A stretch of 64,000 nucleotides of DNA from Brumimicrobium mesophilum (lineage in GTDB: Bacteria; Bacteroidota; Bacteroidia; Flavobacteriales_D; Crocinitomicaceae), in the NCBI RefSeq assembly GCF_003025005.1, contig NZ_PVSS01000017.1:1-64000 (forward strand), in the 5' to 3' direction. Made by a program: the position numbers and the translations under genes. How positions within the stretch are numbered: position 1 is the stretch's first letter; each line of letters starts with the position of its first letter. Of the stretch, positions 41,988-47,644 are shown one piece after another. Under the pieces are notes generated by a model. That model made no database searches. It was not told where the DNA came from and saw only the letters and a list, made by a program, of their open reading frames with translations.

Positions 41988-43283
41988 ATGGCGAAAAACT
42001 TCATAGAAGAATTGACTTGGAGAGGCATGATTCACGATAGCATGCCCGGTGTGGAAGAACATTTATTAGAAAAAATGCGTTCTGCTTATGTGGGAATAGA
42101 TCCTACTGCAGACTCTTTACATATTGGACACCTTGTAAGTGTTATGATGTTACGTCATTTTCAACGTGCTGGGCACAAGCCTTATGCTTTACTTGGTGGA
42201 GCTACAGGAATGATTGGTGACCCTTCTGGAAAATCACAAGAGCGTAATTTACTGAATGAACAAGAACTGCAGCACAATCAAGACGCTATTAAAACACAAT
42301 TAAGTAGATTTTTAGCTTTCGATACGACAGATGAAAACGCTGCTGTTTTAGTGAATAATTATGACTGGATGAAAAACTTTTCATTCCTAGAATTTATTCG
42401 CGATGTTGGAAAACACATTACGGTAAATTACATGATGGCCAAAGATTCTGTAAAGAAAAGATTAACGGGTGAAAATGCGGAAGGAATGTCTTTCACGGAA
42501 TTTTCTTACCAATTAGTTCAAGGAAATGATTTTCTACATTTATATAAAAACAACGAAGTTTCCATTCAAATGGGAGGTTCTGACCAATGGGGAAATATCA
42601 CCACAGGAACAGAATTGGTTCGTCGTGTAGAAAGTGGAAAAGCATTCGCAGTGACATGTCCTTTAATTACAAAGGCAGACGGAACGAAATTTGGGAAAAC
42701 GGAAGGTGGAAATATCTGGTTAGATGCGGAACGTACATCTCCTTACCAATTCTACCAATACTGGTTGAATACTTCGGATGAAGACGCAGAAAAATTCATT
42801 AAGATTTTCACTTTTTTATCGAAAGTAGAAATTGAAGAATTAGTTGCCTCACATCAGGAAGCTCCTCACCAACGTCAATTACAAAAGAAATTGGCTGAAG
42901 AAGTCACAATAATGGTTCATTCAGAAGAAGCACTAAAAACGGCAATTACAGCTTCAAATATTTTGTTTGGAAAATCAACAGAAGAGGATTTAAGATCACT
43001 ATCTGCCAAAGATTTCCTTGCAGTTTTTGAAGGAATTACGCAAGCCACTTTAACTAGAGCTGAATTAAAAGAAGGTGTTGGAATTATCGACGCACTTTCA
43101 GCAAAAACTGGATTCTTAGAGTCTAACGGAGCAGCAAGAAGAGAGTTAAAAGGAAATGCAATTAGCGTGAACAAAACTAAAGTTAAAGAAGATTTAATCC
43201 TAACAGAAGACCACTTGATTAGTGATCAATTTATTCTTTTAGGTAAGGGTAAGAAAACAAACTACTTAATAATAGTTTCGTAA
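41988..43283 (+). CDS. tyrS: Tyrosine--tRNA ligase
   Basis: Class I aminoacyl-tRNA synthetase of 431 residues. Motifs: the HIGH box in [15 protein letters not shown], the tyrosine-binding QGNDFLHLY and [18 protein letters not shown] segments, and the KMSKS-equivalent KFGKTEGG. The C-terminal S4-like RNA-binding domain is present ([17 protein letters not shown]). The expected Tyr-activation residues are present. It is followed by a GAAA-loop terminator. Confidence 0.96.
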
Positions 43284-43415: not shown

Positions 43416-43447
43416 AAAGGAGTTCAAGAAATTGAGCTCCTTTTTTT
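43416..43447 (+). terminator. Terminator of tyrS with GAAA tetraloop
   Basis: AAAGGAGTTCAA pairs with TTGAGCTCCTTT (one G-U) around GAAA, followed by seven T. It lies about 135 bases after the tyrS stop. The intervening DNA holds no recognisable feature. Confidence 0.88.
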
Positions 43448-43466: not shown

Positions 43467-43497
43467 TTTGTTAAATATGTATATTAAATTACTTTTG
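43467..43497 (+). promoter_or_regulatory. Promoter for the M48 protease operon
   Basis: TTTG (43467-43470) and TACTTTTG (43490-43497) are separated by 19 bases, an excellent match to the Bacteroidota -33/-7 consensus. The leader is about 25-30 nt. Confidence 0.75.
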
Positions 43498-43529
43498 TCG
43501 ACTGCAATAAAAAACAACAAACTTATTAC

Positions 43530-45608
43530 TTGGGCGTGAAAAACACTCTTACTTTAACCAACAGGCCTGAGTCTACATTTAATGTAATTCTTACTTTACT
43601 TTTTGTTTTATCTGGTATATTTCTAAATGCTCAAGAAAATATTTTTAATGAAACCAAAAACATTGATATATCTAATCATTTTAAGTCTTCAGAGGAGTTA
43701 AAAAACGACCTTTACTATGAAAACTATGGTAAACTCCACAGAAAGGAAGGTTATTTAATAGGAGATGTTTTAAAACAAGGGTCACTATTCAACCATTCAC
43801 TTAAAAAAAGTGGTGCTGTGAATTTCAATTCTGAAGCCACTGAATATTTAAATCAAATAAAAAGCTTATTACTTCAAGATTATCCTTCGGTAAATAATGA
43901 CATTCAAATATTTATCACCCACGACAATTCTGTTAACGCCTTTGCTACTGTAAACAAAGATATTTTTATTAATGTAGGACTTTTGGCAAAGATTAAAAGT
44001 GAAGCTCAATTGGCATTTATCATTTCACATGAAATTATGCATGTCATTAATGACCACATTATTTCCAAGCAGCGAACAATTAAGGATGAAATAGACAATC
44101 TGGACAAAGCCGATATTTCAATTAATAATGATTACTTGAAATTATTTGAACACCAAATGGGTCTTGATGCAGAATATGAAGCCGATATCAACGGACTGCA
44201 CTTATATCTAAAAACAAATTACTCTAAAGCAGAAGCTATTCAAGCTTTAAACATGCTTAAGACTTCTAATCAAAAAGTATATGATGATTCATTTGATGAA
44301 AGCTCTTTATTCATAGATGCTGATTTATTAATTTATTGTAAAGAAACAATTAAAGAAAATTTGAACGAGTTAAAAAGCTCCTCGGATGATGCTAAAACCT
44401 CTCAATTAAGTAGCCATCCTGACATAGACCTTAGAATTGATACCATTTCAGTGACGATTGAAAAATTTAACAACAACAATACTAAAGGAAGTCAATTTTT
44501 GATTTCAAAGGAATTTTTCAATTCTTTAAGTCTGTATTCAAAATTAGAAATGCTAGAAATTTACAAATCAGATTTTGATTTCATTTCAACATATAATTAC
44601 GCTAGTTATTATTTAAAAAATTCAACTAATGAGATAGTAAAAGAAGATGCGATAAACAGTATTGCCTATGCAATTTATGGACTAATCGTGGACAAAAAGA
44701 ATTCTATCAAACTAAATACATCCAACATTTCATCTTATCCTGATGAACTTCTTTCTACTTTTTATGAAGATCAAAATGAAGAACTACTGGCTGAATGGGG
44801 CGTAAAAATATTGGATAGCATGTCTGTTGAAAACAACAGTGCAACTTTAGCCAAATACAAAGGATATATTCAAGAGTTATCAACGAAAGAAAGTGATCGT
44901 AAATCTGAAGAAAGTAAAAGTTTGAATCTTACAGATTATGACTTTTTAATCAGTCCATTTACAGAGATGATCAATACGAAAAACTATACTTCAAATGCAC
45001 AATTCTCAGGTTCCTTCGAAGGAAAAATTGCAATGTCTAATTACAACACAACAAACCTTCAAGTCGGATTGCAAAAATTCAATGTAAACGTTGAAAAAAG
45101 TGAAAAACAATTAATTAGAGGAACCGAGGCTATTTCGCAACTAGCAGAAAATTATCCAGATAAAATTATTTCTTTAATCCCAAATCCTCAAGAATATTCT
45201 GGAGATGAGTACAATAAATTTAATTTATTAAACAAATGGCTACAAGAGCGATTTTATTTTGATGCACAGGACTACACTTCAATGTATCAAGATGAAATAA
45301 ACAAATTAATCAAGGAAGATGGAATTGAATTCGTAATGGCGAACCTACAAGTTGATATTAAAACAATCGGCTTATTAAGTATCATGAAAAGATTTTATCC
45401 AGTTTTGTTTGTTTATCAGTACTTCCCCCAGCTCGTGATGAATTCTGAAATAGGGAAATACAGAACCTACAAACTAACTATTATGTTTAGATTGGTTGAT
45501 GGTGAATTAGCTCTTTGGGACACCAGAACCTCTCAGCAACCTCAAACAACCGCTCAGGTTTACTTAACTTTTCAAGACATTATAAACGACTTAAATATTG
45601 CCAAATGA
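43530..45608 (+). CDS. Exported M48-family metalloprotease
   Basis: The 692 residues start at TTG 43530 or, as likely, GTG 43536; no ATG is available before the signal peptide (VILTLLFVLSGIFLNAQ). The M48 zinc site is intact: HEIMH at residues 167-171 and the third-ligand region DAEYEAD at 213-219, preceded by the strand FINVGLLAKIKSEAQLAFIIS. The roughly 450 residues after the protease domain are helical, without the TPR repeats common in BepA-type proteins, and I do not recognise them. It is the first gene of a three-gene operon with two exported barrel-like proteins. Quality control or processing of outer-membrane proteins is a reasonable but untested idea. Confidence 0.88.
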   Translation: MGVKNTLTLTNRPESTFNVILTLLFVLSGIFLNAQENIFNETKNIDISNHFKSSEELKNDLYYENYGKLHRKEGYLIGDVLKQGSLFNHSLKKSGAVNFNSEATEYLNQIKSLLLQDYPSVNNDIQIFITHDNSVNAFATVNKDIFINVGLLAKIKSEAQLAFIISHEIMHVINDHIISKQRTIKDEIDNLDKADISINNDYLKLFEHQMGLDAEYEADINGLHLYLKTNYSKAEAIQALNMLKTSNQKVYDDSFDESSLFIDADLLIYCKETIKENLNELKSSSDDAKTSQLSSHPDIDLRIDTISVTIEKFNNNNTKGSQFLISKEFFNSLSLYSKLEMLEIYKSDFDFISTYNYASYYLKNSTNEIVKEDAINSIAYAIYGLIVDKKNSIKLNTSNISSYPDELLSTFYEDQNEELLAEWGVKILDSMSVENNSATLAKYKGYIQELSTKESDRKSEESKSLNLTDYDFLISPFTEMINTKNYTSNAQFSGSFEGKIAMSNYNTTNLQVGLQKFNVNVEKSEKQLIRGTEAISQLAENYPDKIISLIPNPQEYSGDEYNKFNLLNKWLQERFYFDAQDYTSMYQDEINKLIKEDGIEFVMANLQVDIKTIGLLSIMKRFYPVLFVYQYFPQLVMNSEIGKYRTYKLTIMFRLVDGELALWDTRTSQQPQTTAQVYLTFQDIINDLNIAK

Positions 45609-46228
45609 GAAAACTAATTTTATTTATAATTCTTGTTTTTATTACCATCGGTGTAAATGCTCAAAGCTATCAGGGCTATCAAGGAAAGAAGTTTTCTTTC
45701 TCTTACCAGCCTTCATATGTAGTTCTTAATTACTTCTCTACAAAGCTTTTAGCACCTCAAACAATTAACTTTACTTACTCTCCTTTTCAGCATTTTTCAA
45801 TTGGATTGAGTGCCACTAGCGCAAACAAAGAGTTTTTCAATGATTATCATTACAAATACATGCATGTAAATGACAAAACGATTGGAATAGCATTTAATTA
45901 CCACAGAAAGAATAAAGGCAGCTATTCTCCAGCGGGTAGATATATTGGGCTAAAATTTGAGTATGGAACCCAAAACGGAGAAACATTGCAGCAAGAAGAA
46001 GTCGAAGTCCCAAATTGCGTAAACTGCTTTGAAAACCTGTATTACTACGATGAACGAGGAAAAGGTAAAATGATCGTAGCCTCAGTTATTTTTGGACGTA
46101 ATTTCATTTTGAAAGATCATTTTTTATTAGGTTACGGTATTCAATGGGGATTGATTGTAAATGATAATAATAACCAACCAATGCGTCACATGGGAAGACC
46201 ATTCTTTAACCTTGGAATAATATTTTAA
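45605..46228 (+). CDS. Exported protein, probable outer-membrane barrel
   Basis: The 207 residues start at the ATG that overlaps the protease stop (ATGA, 4 bases), giving translational coupling. A longer frame starting inside the protease gene is rejected. The signal peptide is MRKLILFIILVFITIGVNAQ. The mature part has alternating aromatic/Gly strands (FSFSYQPSYVVLNYFSTKLL, HFSIGLSATSAN, IGLKFEYGT) and ends HMGRPFFNLGIIF with a terminal Phe, as in outer-membrane barrels. A VEVPNCVNCFEN loop contains a C-x-x-C pair. Function unknown. Confidence 0.8.
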   Translation: MRKLILFIILVFITIGVNAQSYQGYQGKKFSFSYQPSYVVLNYFSTKLLAPQTINFTYSPFQHFSIGLSATSANKEFFNDYHYKYMHVNDKTIGIAFNYHRKNKGSYSPAGRYIGLKFEYGTQNGETLQQEEVEVPNCVNCFENLYYYDERGKGKMIVASVIFGRNFILKDHFLLGYGIQWGLIVNDNNNQPMRHMGRPFFNLGIIF

Positions 46229-46230
46229 AA

Positions 46231-46971
46231 ATGAAAGTAATATTTATAACTCTTTTCACATTAATTTTCTTCAATGGAATATCCCAAGATTTAGAATTAG
46301 TGGATGATAAAATGAATTCTTACAAAGAACCAGAATCTAAAAATTATTCTTGGCTGAAAAAGAATTTCTTTCTTGATTTAAAGCTGAACATACCTACAGA
46401 AGTTTTCAAACCAAAAGAAATGGATATTATTTTCGACGGACAGCCACACCATTTCACTAATTTCGAATACAAAACTGTTGAATATACAGATAGAAATTTT
46501 CTAATAAACATTATTGGTGTAGGAATCGAGCCACGTGTAAATCTCTATGAGACTGACAAAACTTCCTTTGGTTTAAAAGCTTCTTTTCATTTTAATTTAT
46601 CGGTTTACAACACTTTAGATAATCAATTTAAAGAAGGGGGAAACCACCACATCAGTTCTTCCGCAATGGTTTTCATGGGAAGGGGATTGGGCTCAACATA
46701 CTTTAATATCAATGAATACGGCTGGGCATTATCTGCTGGAGTTAACTATATTAAAACTCCAATTTCAGGAGGTGAAATCAGATTTACTCCAAATAAATAT
46801 TTAATCAACCCGGAAAGTGAAGAATTTAGGAAATCAACATGGTTGCTTCCTATGATTCAATTCGATCATTACCGATTAACAGAAAAAAATAGACTTCGTA
46901 ATGTTTCATTTTCAGCGGGCTATTTTAATCAAAGTACGTACTTAAGGCTAAATATAGGGTGGACCTTGTAG
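46231..46971 (+). CDS. Exported protein, probable outer-membrane barrel
   Basis: The 246 residues start 2 bases after the preceding stop. The signal peptide is MKVIFITLFTLIFFNGISQ. The mature sequence has strand-like segments with aromatic edges (FFLDLKLNIPTEVF, NFLINIIGVGIEPRVNLYE, TSFGLKASFHFNLSVY) and a C-terminal YLRLNIGWTL. It shares the general barrel style of its upstream neighbour but no clear sequence identity. It is the last gene of the M48 operon and is convergent with the next gene, leaving only 4 bases. Confidence 0.78.
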   Translation: MKVIFITLFTLIFFNGISQDLELVDDKMNSYKEPESKNYSWLKKNFFLDLKLNIPTEVFKPKEMDIIFDGQPHHFTNFEYKTVEYTDRNFLINIIGVGIEPRVNLYETDKTSFGLKASFHFNLSVYNTLDNQFKEGGNHHISSSAMVFMGRGLGSTYFNINEYGWALSAGVNYIKTPISGGEIRFTPNKYLINPESEEFRKSTWLLPMIQFDHYRLTEKNRLRNVSFSAGYFNQSTYLRLNIGWTL

Positions 46972-46975
46972 CGTG

Positions 46976-47644
46976 TTAAACCACGTCTTGCATTTCCTGA
47001 TAATGATACACTTCTACACCCTTTTTATTTAATTTCGCAACTTCAACCATCGCTTTGGCAACAGTTCTACCTTCAATTGGTTTTGCATTTTTAGGTATTA
47101 GGAATTTCAGCACTTTACCAAACAACTGCATGATTCCTTCAGCAAATCTATTGTCTGAACGATCCCCTAATAATAGTGATGGCCTGAAAATAGATAAGGA
47201 ATCCAAACCAACAGGTGAATGAACTTTCTCCTTCAAGGCATCTTCTACTTCTCCTTTCAATTTCAAATAAAAACCTCGTTTTTTACTATCCGCTCCTAAT
47301 GACGAAACGATTAAAAATTGTTTACAGCCAAATTTTACACAGTGTTGAGCCGCATTAACAGGAATATCGAAATCTATTTTCCTATATAATTTCTTGTCCC
47401 CTTTAACCTTTTTTTGAGTGGTTCCTATAGCACAAAAAACAACAGTACTTCCATCAATAGCCGCCTTGAATTGCGCTTCATCCTCGAAGTCAATTACAAC
47501 AACTTTAACCTTAGGATGGTCAATTTCTAATGACCTTCTAGAAATAATTCTAATTTCATCAAAAGTGGCTTCATTCTTTAATCGCTCCAGAATATGTCCT
47601 CCAATTAACCCTGTTGCTCCAAGTATAGTTGCTGTTGTTTCCAT
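46976..47644 (-). CDS. NAD(P)-binding Rossmann oxidoreductase (NmrA/HTATIP2-like)
   Basis: The 222 residues begin with the dinucleotide motif ILGATGLIGGHILERL (G9-x-x-G12-x-x-G15). They continue with the family segments VVFCAIGTTQKKVKG, YRKIDFDIPVNAAQHCVKFG, FLIVSSLGADSKK and FRPSLLLGDR. The catalytic Tyr-x-x-x-Lys is represented by FYLKLKGEVE, so reductase activity is possible. Substrate unknown. It stands alone and is cytoplasmic. Confidence 0.88.
   Translation of the reverse strand: METTATILGATGLIGGHILERLKNEATFDEIRIISRRSLEIDHPKVKVVVIDFEDEAQFKAAIDGSTVVFCAIGTTQKKVKGDKKLYRKIDFDIPVNAAQHCVKFGCKQFLIVSSLGADSKKRGFYLKLKGEVEDALKEKVHSPVGLDSLSIFRPSLLLGDRSDNRFAEGIMQLFGKVLKFLIPKNAKPIEGRTVAKAMVEVAKLNKKGVEVYHYQEMQDVV

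Follow-up and report, generated by a model that had tools for sequence, protein, structure and literature searches.

A predicted outer-membrane M48 protease encoded with its own partner barrel in Brumimicrobium mesophilum

The M48 proteases known so far, BepA among them, are mainly stand-alone proteins, and outer-membrane quality control in Bacteroidota is, to our knowledge, poorly understood. The M48 membrane quality-control proteases LoiP, YcaL and HtpX of Escherichia coli are not known to have a long C-terminal half; LoiP and YcaL are set apart here by their description. BepA (YfgC), also from E. coli, is the M48 protease that works on the BAM complex. PMC7950410 describes its plug histidine (H246) and tetratricopeptide repeat (TPR) domain, and PMC8423444 a histidine switch and a protein that either promotes LptD assembly or degrades LptD. 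Here we describe an operon in a 64,000-nucleotide stretch of Brumimicrobium mesophilum DNA (contig NZ_PVSS01000017.1, positions 1 to 64,000), the whole of which is termed the window. Three forward-strand genes encode P0001 (43536..45608; GTG start, alternative TTG at 43530), an exported M48 metalloprotease of 690 residues; P0002 (45605..46228), an exported protein modelled as an 8-strand outer-membrane barrel and belonging to a family of partner barrels; and P0003 (46231..46971), an exported protein whose gene is kept as the third in two other genomes. Taken together, sequence comparisons and structural models suggest that the operon probably encodes a periplasmic zinc protease that resembles BepA and is docked at the outer membrane on its own barrel, which would act as anchor or adaptor. 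A sequence-only reading of this DNA had called the system one not recognised as described, and literature searches, judged by titles and abstract openings, likewise gave no description of an M48–barrel pairing. An M48 outer-membrane protease with a cognate barrel would appear to be a variant that the searches made did not find described.

P0001 belongs to peptidase family M48, as determined by its Pfam match (E = 4.6e-16; 59.6 bits against a gathering score of 20.3), an HExxH motif and a downstream glutamate. The zinc site, HEIMH at residues 165-169 (44028..44042, + strand), is intact, as the sequence-only reading had stated, and is conserved in the alignment together with E213 (44172-44174, +) and the histidine of an SHP motif, H294 (44415-44417, +). 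H165, E166, H169, E213, D217, H294, P295 and R300 were found in 47/47 aligned proteins, the zinc-site-less homologues described below having been left out of this alignment. BepA was the best PDB sequence match of P0001, and the two share the M48 fold, the zinc site, the SHP histidine and export; the equivalence of H294 to BepA H246 is suggested by the motif. P0001 is nevertheless not a BepA equivalog, scoring 43.8 bits against the cut-off of 570 for NCBIfam M48_BAM_BepA and over residues 82-176 only. With LoiP, YcaL and HtpX it has the M48 domain in common, and the HtpX models match it weakly. A single-sequence search of genome contigs with P0001 found no relative; an alignment-based search then gave 41 named loci. 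Two paralogues of P0001 lie on another contig of the B. mesophilum genome.

The long C-terminal half of P0001 had been described as unrecognised and lacking TPRs. No Pfam TPR family matched P0001 at E up to 10, nor any of 26 aligned relatives (alignment A1, P0001 included) at E up to 0.01; all 26 match M48 alone in Pfam, leaving the C-terminal half outside its coverage. P0001 and its orthologue align to the family of large M48 proteins (open reading frames (ORFs) of 656-776 residues in the family sample below) near full length (hhalign probability 100, E 1.3e-43, profile columns 71-708), so this half is a family feature common to the large M48s.

A fold for this region was suggested by relatives in which protease and barrel form one ORF. 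Four such fusions occur in metagenome-assembled records (L104, 897; L106, 914; L108, 912; L115, 869 residues), three labelled Bacteroidales and one, L106, Bacteroidetes. They form one branch in a quick tree, with a Shimodaira–Hasegawa-like approximate likelihood ratio test (SH-aLRT) value of 100. The AlphaFold2 model of L106 (predicted local distance difference test (pLDDT) 76.9, predicted template modelling score (pTM) 0.70) consists of the M48 domain, helices at 304-504, an alpha/beta domain and an 8-strand barrel. VIA comparison matched the model to BepA over residues 44-411 (Z 14.8, root-mean-square deviation (rmsd) 8.2, 253 aligned) and to the OprF barrel (Z 17.4, rmsd 2.7, 129 aligned). 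The segment at residues 518-711 matched HpaA (Z 12.2, rmsd 5.4, 142 aligned), HP0492 (Z 11.2), PelC (Z 10.0, rmsd 3.2, 116 aligned) and PqiC (Z 9.9, rmsd 3.4, 115 aligned), and GNA1162 by Foldseek (probability 0.98). PelC, PqiC, GNA1162 and HpaA are outer-membrane-side lipoproteins, and PelC is described in PMC12141448 as a periplasmic ring on the PelB barrel. In the present proteins, by contrast, the fold is a modelled domain of a protease that does not look like a lipoprotein by eye. Residues ~494-690 of P0001 (45015..45605, +; boundary approximate) align to this alpha/beta domain, which suggests that its C-terminal half carries a PelC/PqiC/HpaA-like fold. Large M48s thus appear to differ from BepA in an additional C-terminal alpha/beta domain and in having their own barrel, as a gene or as a fusion; where BepA has a C-terminal TPR domain, 0/26 have a Pfam TPR match and the L106 model has helices that superpose on BepA at the rmsd given above.

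P0002 was matched by a barrel-family hidden Markov model (HMM) built without it, at E 2.4e-7 among 465 ORFs. ORFs near the protease of locus L088 scored close to it in the same scan (5.7e-7, 1.1e-5), and the next non-partner ORFs were at 1.2e-4 or weaker. Comparison with the family profile gave an hhalign probability of 98.7%, placing P0002 in the partner-barrel family. Its AlphaFold2 model has eight main strands (pLDDT 78.6, pTM 0.70) and matched OmpW by Foldseek (E 1.6e-4), the OprF barrel (Z 14.8) and OmpW (Z 13.3) by VIA, and also OmpA; the VIA lists for this model and that of L106 consist mostly of barrels, so the absence of other folds from them is uninformative. Family membership and model together support P0002 as an 8-strand outer-membrane barrel of OmpA/OmpW type. 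Two barrel-like outer-membrane partners had been proposed in the sequence-only reading; for P0002 the model supports both the barrel and the predicted location, and for P0003, as described below, neither gained such support. No Pfam or NCBIfam family covers the 36 partner barrels, single members of which gave scattered weak matches. PorP/SprF (type IX), which we take to be PF11751, was rejected as an identity, being absent from the 18 Pfam families matched by these barrels at E up to 1 and from any matches of P0002 and P0003 at E up to 10. A weak match of P0002 to an 893-residue frame of genome G010 was also set aside, the latter being a repetitive MORN-like protein by eye.

What sets the family apart from OmpA, OmpW and OprF is its genetic or covalent link to M48 and two motifs, both predicted to be periplasmic. 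G-Y-Q-G-K-K follows the P0002 signal peptide (45674..45691, +; family motif GYxGKK), and S-P-A-G precedes strand 5 in a turn (45926..45937, +; family motif APxG), with P109 and G111 of the latter found in 14/14 barrel sequences. Mean conservation was 0.45-0.56 in predicted periplasmic segments, the two motifs being among these segments, as against 0.23-0.41 in extracellular loops and 0.40 in strands. The C-x-x-C loop to which attention had been drawn (C-V-N-C, 46016..46027, +) lies in a predicted extracellular loop and is absent from both orthologues compared, and a functional role for it was rejected.

The association of protease and barrel was examined in 100 genomes of the window's taxonomic family, where all M48 counts are among the matches listed, the weakest matches lying outside. 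Some M48 match was present in 86/100 genomes and a large one in 60. A barrel-family match lay downstream on the same strand of 76/82 large M48s (75/82 if barrel matches were restricted to E 1.3e-8 or better). Smaller M48s of any subfamily, unlike the large ones, had such a neighbour in 0/68 cases. Strong barrel matches were found in 58/60 genomes with a large M48. The barrel profile used (A8; at most 25 candidates scored per genome) has 36 rows, 23 of them from these genomes, so that some 50 pairs are independent of it. From the strongest matches, 48 regions holding 51 large M48 genes were picked for inspection, and 46 of these genes have a 180-330-residue ORF within 150 bases on the same strand; judged by their signal segment and ending, 45 of the ORFs resemble barrels, and the remaining one (L070) is lipoprotein-like. 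Protease and barrel also diverged together across 45 pairs (Mantel r 0.84, permutation maximum 0.15), including those with M48 identity <45% (r 0.68). We therefore regard protease and barrel as almost certainly a dedicated pair, and the earlier proposal of a dedicated coupling between protease and outer-membrane protein is upheld by this pairing, by co-inheritance, by the fusions and by a three-gene order found in two more genomes.

Beyond this sample, 31 of the 41 named loci were inspected and contained 17 unfused ORFs of at least 690 residues. A barrel-like ORF lies downstream of 14 and, in L103, upstream; L101 is at a contig end. The barrel HMM matches the 14, which belonged to its training set, and that of L103. 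In the named Fluviicola loci L119 and L122 the order is a gene that is presumably nadE-like, M48, barrel, as in the window's taxonomic family, and named locus L112 agrees with L083, a member of that family, in ORF lengths and visible protein starts; on these grounds the family is probably Crocinitomicaceae. Barrel matches occurred in 70/395 genomes of the class and 50/197 genera (E 1e-8, at most six candidates scored per genome).

Two variants of the pair bear on how its members relate. In the four fusions, the barrel was recognised by an HMM trained on separate barrels (E 4e-6, 9.6e-12, 4.6e-13 and 7e-12 for L104, L106, L108 and L115, in a scan of 339 ORFs whose best unrelated ORF scored 0.0017); an alignment combining the fusions with separate barrels was set aside, since its barrel rows spread across the protease part. 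As the protease precedes the barrel N-terminus, the usual barrel topology would place it in the periplasm. The second variant emerged from eight strong barrel matches lacking a listed M48, of which six were examined, leaving out those on G072 and G022. Five follow ORFs of 652-673 residues with matches to the M48 profile between E 2.8e-63 and 1.4e-83 and with neither HExxH nor SHP (L139 1474-3453, L140 1565-3586, L141 1726-3738, L142 2044-4002, L143 2006-4012); the remaining one, L144, lies where its contig ends. In a quick tree the five ORFs group as a single branch (SH-aLRT 99) nested among the active proteases; from the loss of HExxH they are predicted pseudoproteases.

These observations favour the barrel as anchor or adaptor, the more likely role than substrate, because one clade has it fused to the protease and another keeps it beside zinc-site-less homologues. 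An 8-strand barrel is too narrow for export of the protease, and a periplasmic anchor or adaptor is thus the simplest reading. In the proposed mechanism, the PelC-like C-terminal domain of P0001 would dock on the barrel's conserved periplasmic rim, at GYxGKK and APxG, placing the protease at the outer membrane on its periplasmic side. So held, and much as BepA acts on the BAM complex, the protease may cut exported proteins or those of the outer membrane, or assist in their folding; the barrel would serve as anchor and adaptor and not as substrate. A physical complex of the two proteins is likely. A BepA-like role in quality control is a more tentative proposal, for which we would put the chances at somewhat under even.

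Several observations weigh against this picture. Joint inheritance would also produce pairing and co-divergence, neither of which implies contact. The C-terminal fold of P0001 is carried over from the model of a relative ~20% identical, the VIA Z near 10 for that domain is moderate, and some of the periplasmic barrel segments compared span no more than 3-4 residues. Six of the 82 large M48s have no same-strand barrel: L145 is at a contig end, L070 has the lipoprotein-like ORF instead, L022 is the second copy of a tandem, L065 and L073 have no barrel that could be seen, and the four barrel-like genes near that of L147 are oriented the other way. The named locus L120 also has no barrel. The module is patchy; among 118 phylum-wide genomes a barrel match at E 1e-6 was found only in the window's own, and outside that genome all M48 matches at E 1e-20 are of <600 residues.

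Of the other explanations, the one that survives best, though we consider it unlikely, is that the protease is a dedicated assembly factor, both foldase and quality control, that escorts or trims its own barrel and destroys failures, much as BepA promotes the assembly of LptD or degrades it (PMC8423444). The zinc-site-less homologues kept with a barrel would fit a non-proteolytic chaperone, and the tandem arrays of L152, L154, L164 and L146 suggest that one protease may serve several barrels. A permanently fused protease is hard to picture as an escort, however, and on general grounds ~700 residues devoted to a simple barrel of 200-300 would be costly. The sequence-only reading had suggested a dedicated protease–substrate or protease–chaperone system: the system appears dedicated, with the barrel a less likely substrate than anchor or adaptor in view of the fusions and the zinc-site-less pairs, and a chaperone role is still conceivable. 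That the barrel, and P0003 with it, are dedicated substrates accords with adjacent, overlapping genes and variable extracellular loops, yet in four genomes barrel and protease are one polypeptide, in five the barrel is kept beside zinc-site-less homologues, and its conserved face is the predicted periplasmic one, making this improbable. An envelope sensor, in which surface loops would sense a condition and free the histidine switch so that the protease cuts a signalling protein (P0003 or another accessory exported protein), seems just as improbable, since the invariant SHP histidine (47/47), the variable loops above a conserved rim and the several unrelated accessory exported proteins adjoining the module are set against the fact that no recurring regulator or signalling gene was noticed in the neighbourhoods viewed, where no systematic search for one was made.

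A bolder extension, which we hold to be rather doubtful, is a Bacteroidota outer-membrane proteolysis machine in which the PelC-like domains of the protease would assemble on the periplasmic rim of the 8-strand barrel into a gated chamber fixed to the membrane. Such a machine would be an outer-membrane counterpart of membrane-anchored HtpX and FtsH, and one branch of it would have lost catalysis while still acting in folding or as a scaffold. The pairing of a protease with its own barrel is in any case a testable module, with the barrel family in 50/197 of the class genera sampled. Structural studies could start from the fusions, in which the pair is one chain; the zinc-site-less branch allows scaffolding to be told apart from cutting, and both rim motifs lend themselves to point mutations. 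The module also gives context to a barrel family outside Pfam and NCBIfam and to a protease C-terminal half outside Pfam.

The third gene belongs to a narrower branch. The order M48, P0002-like barrel, P0003-like gene recurs in G029, of another genus, and in G244, of another taxonomic family, where it has a 4-base overlap and a 2-base gap; the three genes do therefore co-occur elsewhere. Loci L058 and L173 carry this order besides the window, and their proteases form one branch with P0001 (SH-aLRT 100, quick tree), whose deeper place is unsure given long neighbouring branches. G478 has the three genes side by side but ordered differently. Relatives of P0003 occurred in 4/395 class genomes, its own included; in G304, and again at a second site in G478, such a relative has no M48 in its vicinity. 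No Pfam family was found for P0003, and its matches to PDB sequences were weak and unrelated (best E 0.19, subtilisin). Its candidacy as a second member of the barrel family was rejected, as hhalign gave 6.8% and 29.6%, the latter confined to the signal peptide. P0003 is probably an accessory or client of the three-gene branch. Two relatives without a nearby M48 (L175 5644-6408, L176 5298-6056) both adjoin a similar gene pair, of 408-419- and 331-413-residue ORFs.

The layout of the operon largely agrees with the sequence-only reading. P0001 and P0002 overlap by ATGA and P0002 and P0003 are 2 bases apart, as stated there, and each protein begins with a hydrophobic signal-like segment, judged by eye. 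The description as self-contained also fits. A terminator-like stem-loop with a T run (43416..43443, +; four such sites found, 1.7 expected by chance) lies between the operon and the upstream ORF (41988-43283), presumably tyrosyl-tRNA synthetase, and the next ORF downstream is convergent (46976-47644). A strong promoter had been claimed. The sequence TTTG-N19-TACTTTTG (43467..43497, +) resembles what we assume to be the Bacteroidota-type consensus, and the pattern TTTG-N19-TAnnTTTG occurs three times in the window against 0.89 expected, with at least three in 6/100 shuffles. Because of these counts, which fall short of proof, a promoter role for the site is plausible but weak.

Other arrangements were seen around large M48 genes. 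Three or four partner barrels stand in tandem behind one M48, or its visible end, in L152, L154, L164 and L146 (2368-5005). In L147 (2388-10414) the M48 lies amid four barrel-like and two lipoprotein-like genes on the opposite strand. Proteins of ~480-550 residues, mostly with a signal-like start, adjoin large M48s in L020-L023, L069, L074, L087, L104, L108, L114, L116 and L127 and are possible clients or regulators; as a shared third partner they were rejected, the 17 candidates (two of them duplicates) splitting into seven groups rather than one family. Within the window's genus, L020 (4684-17948), L021, L022, L023 and L027 have one or two M48(-barrel) units between the same two flanks, which we take to be an RNase III-like gene and rimP/nusA-like genes, and the site is thus conserved in the genus.

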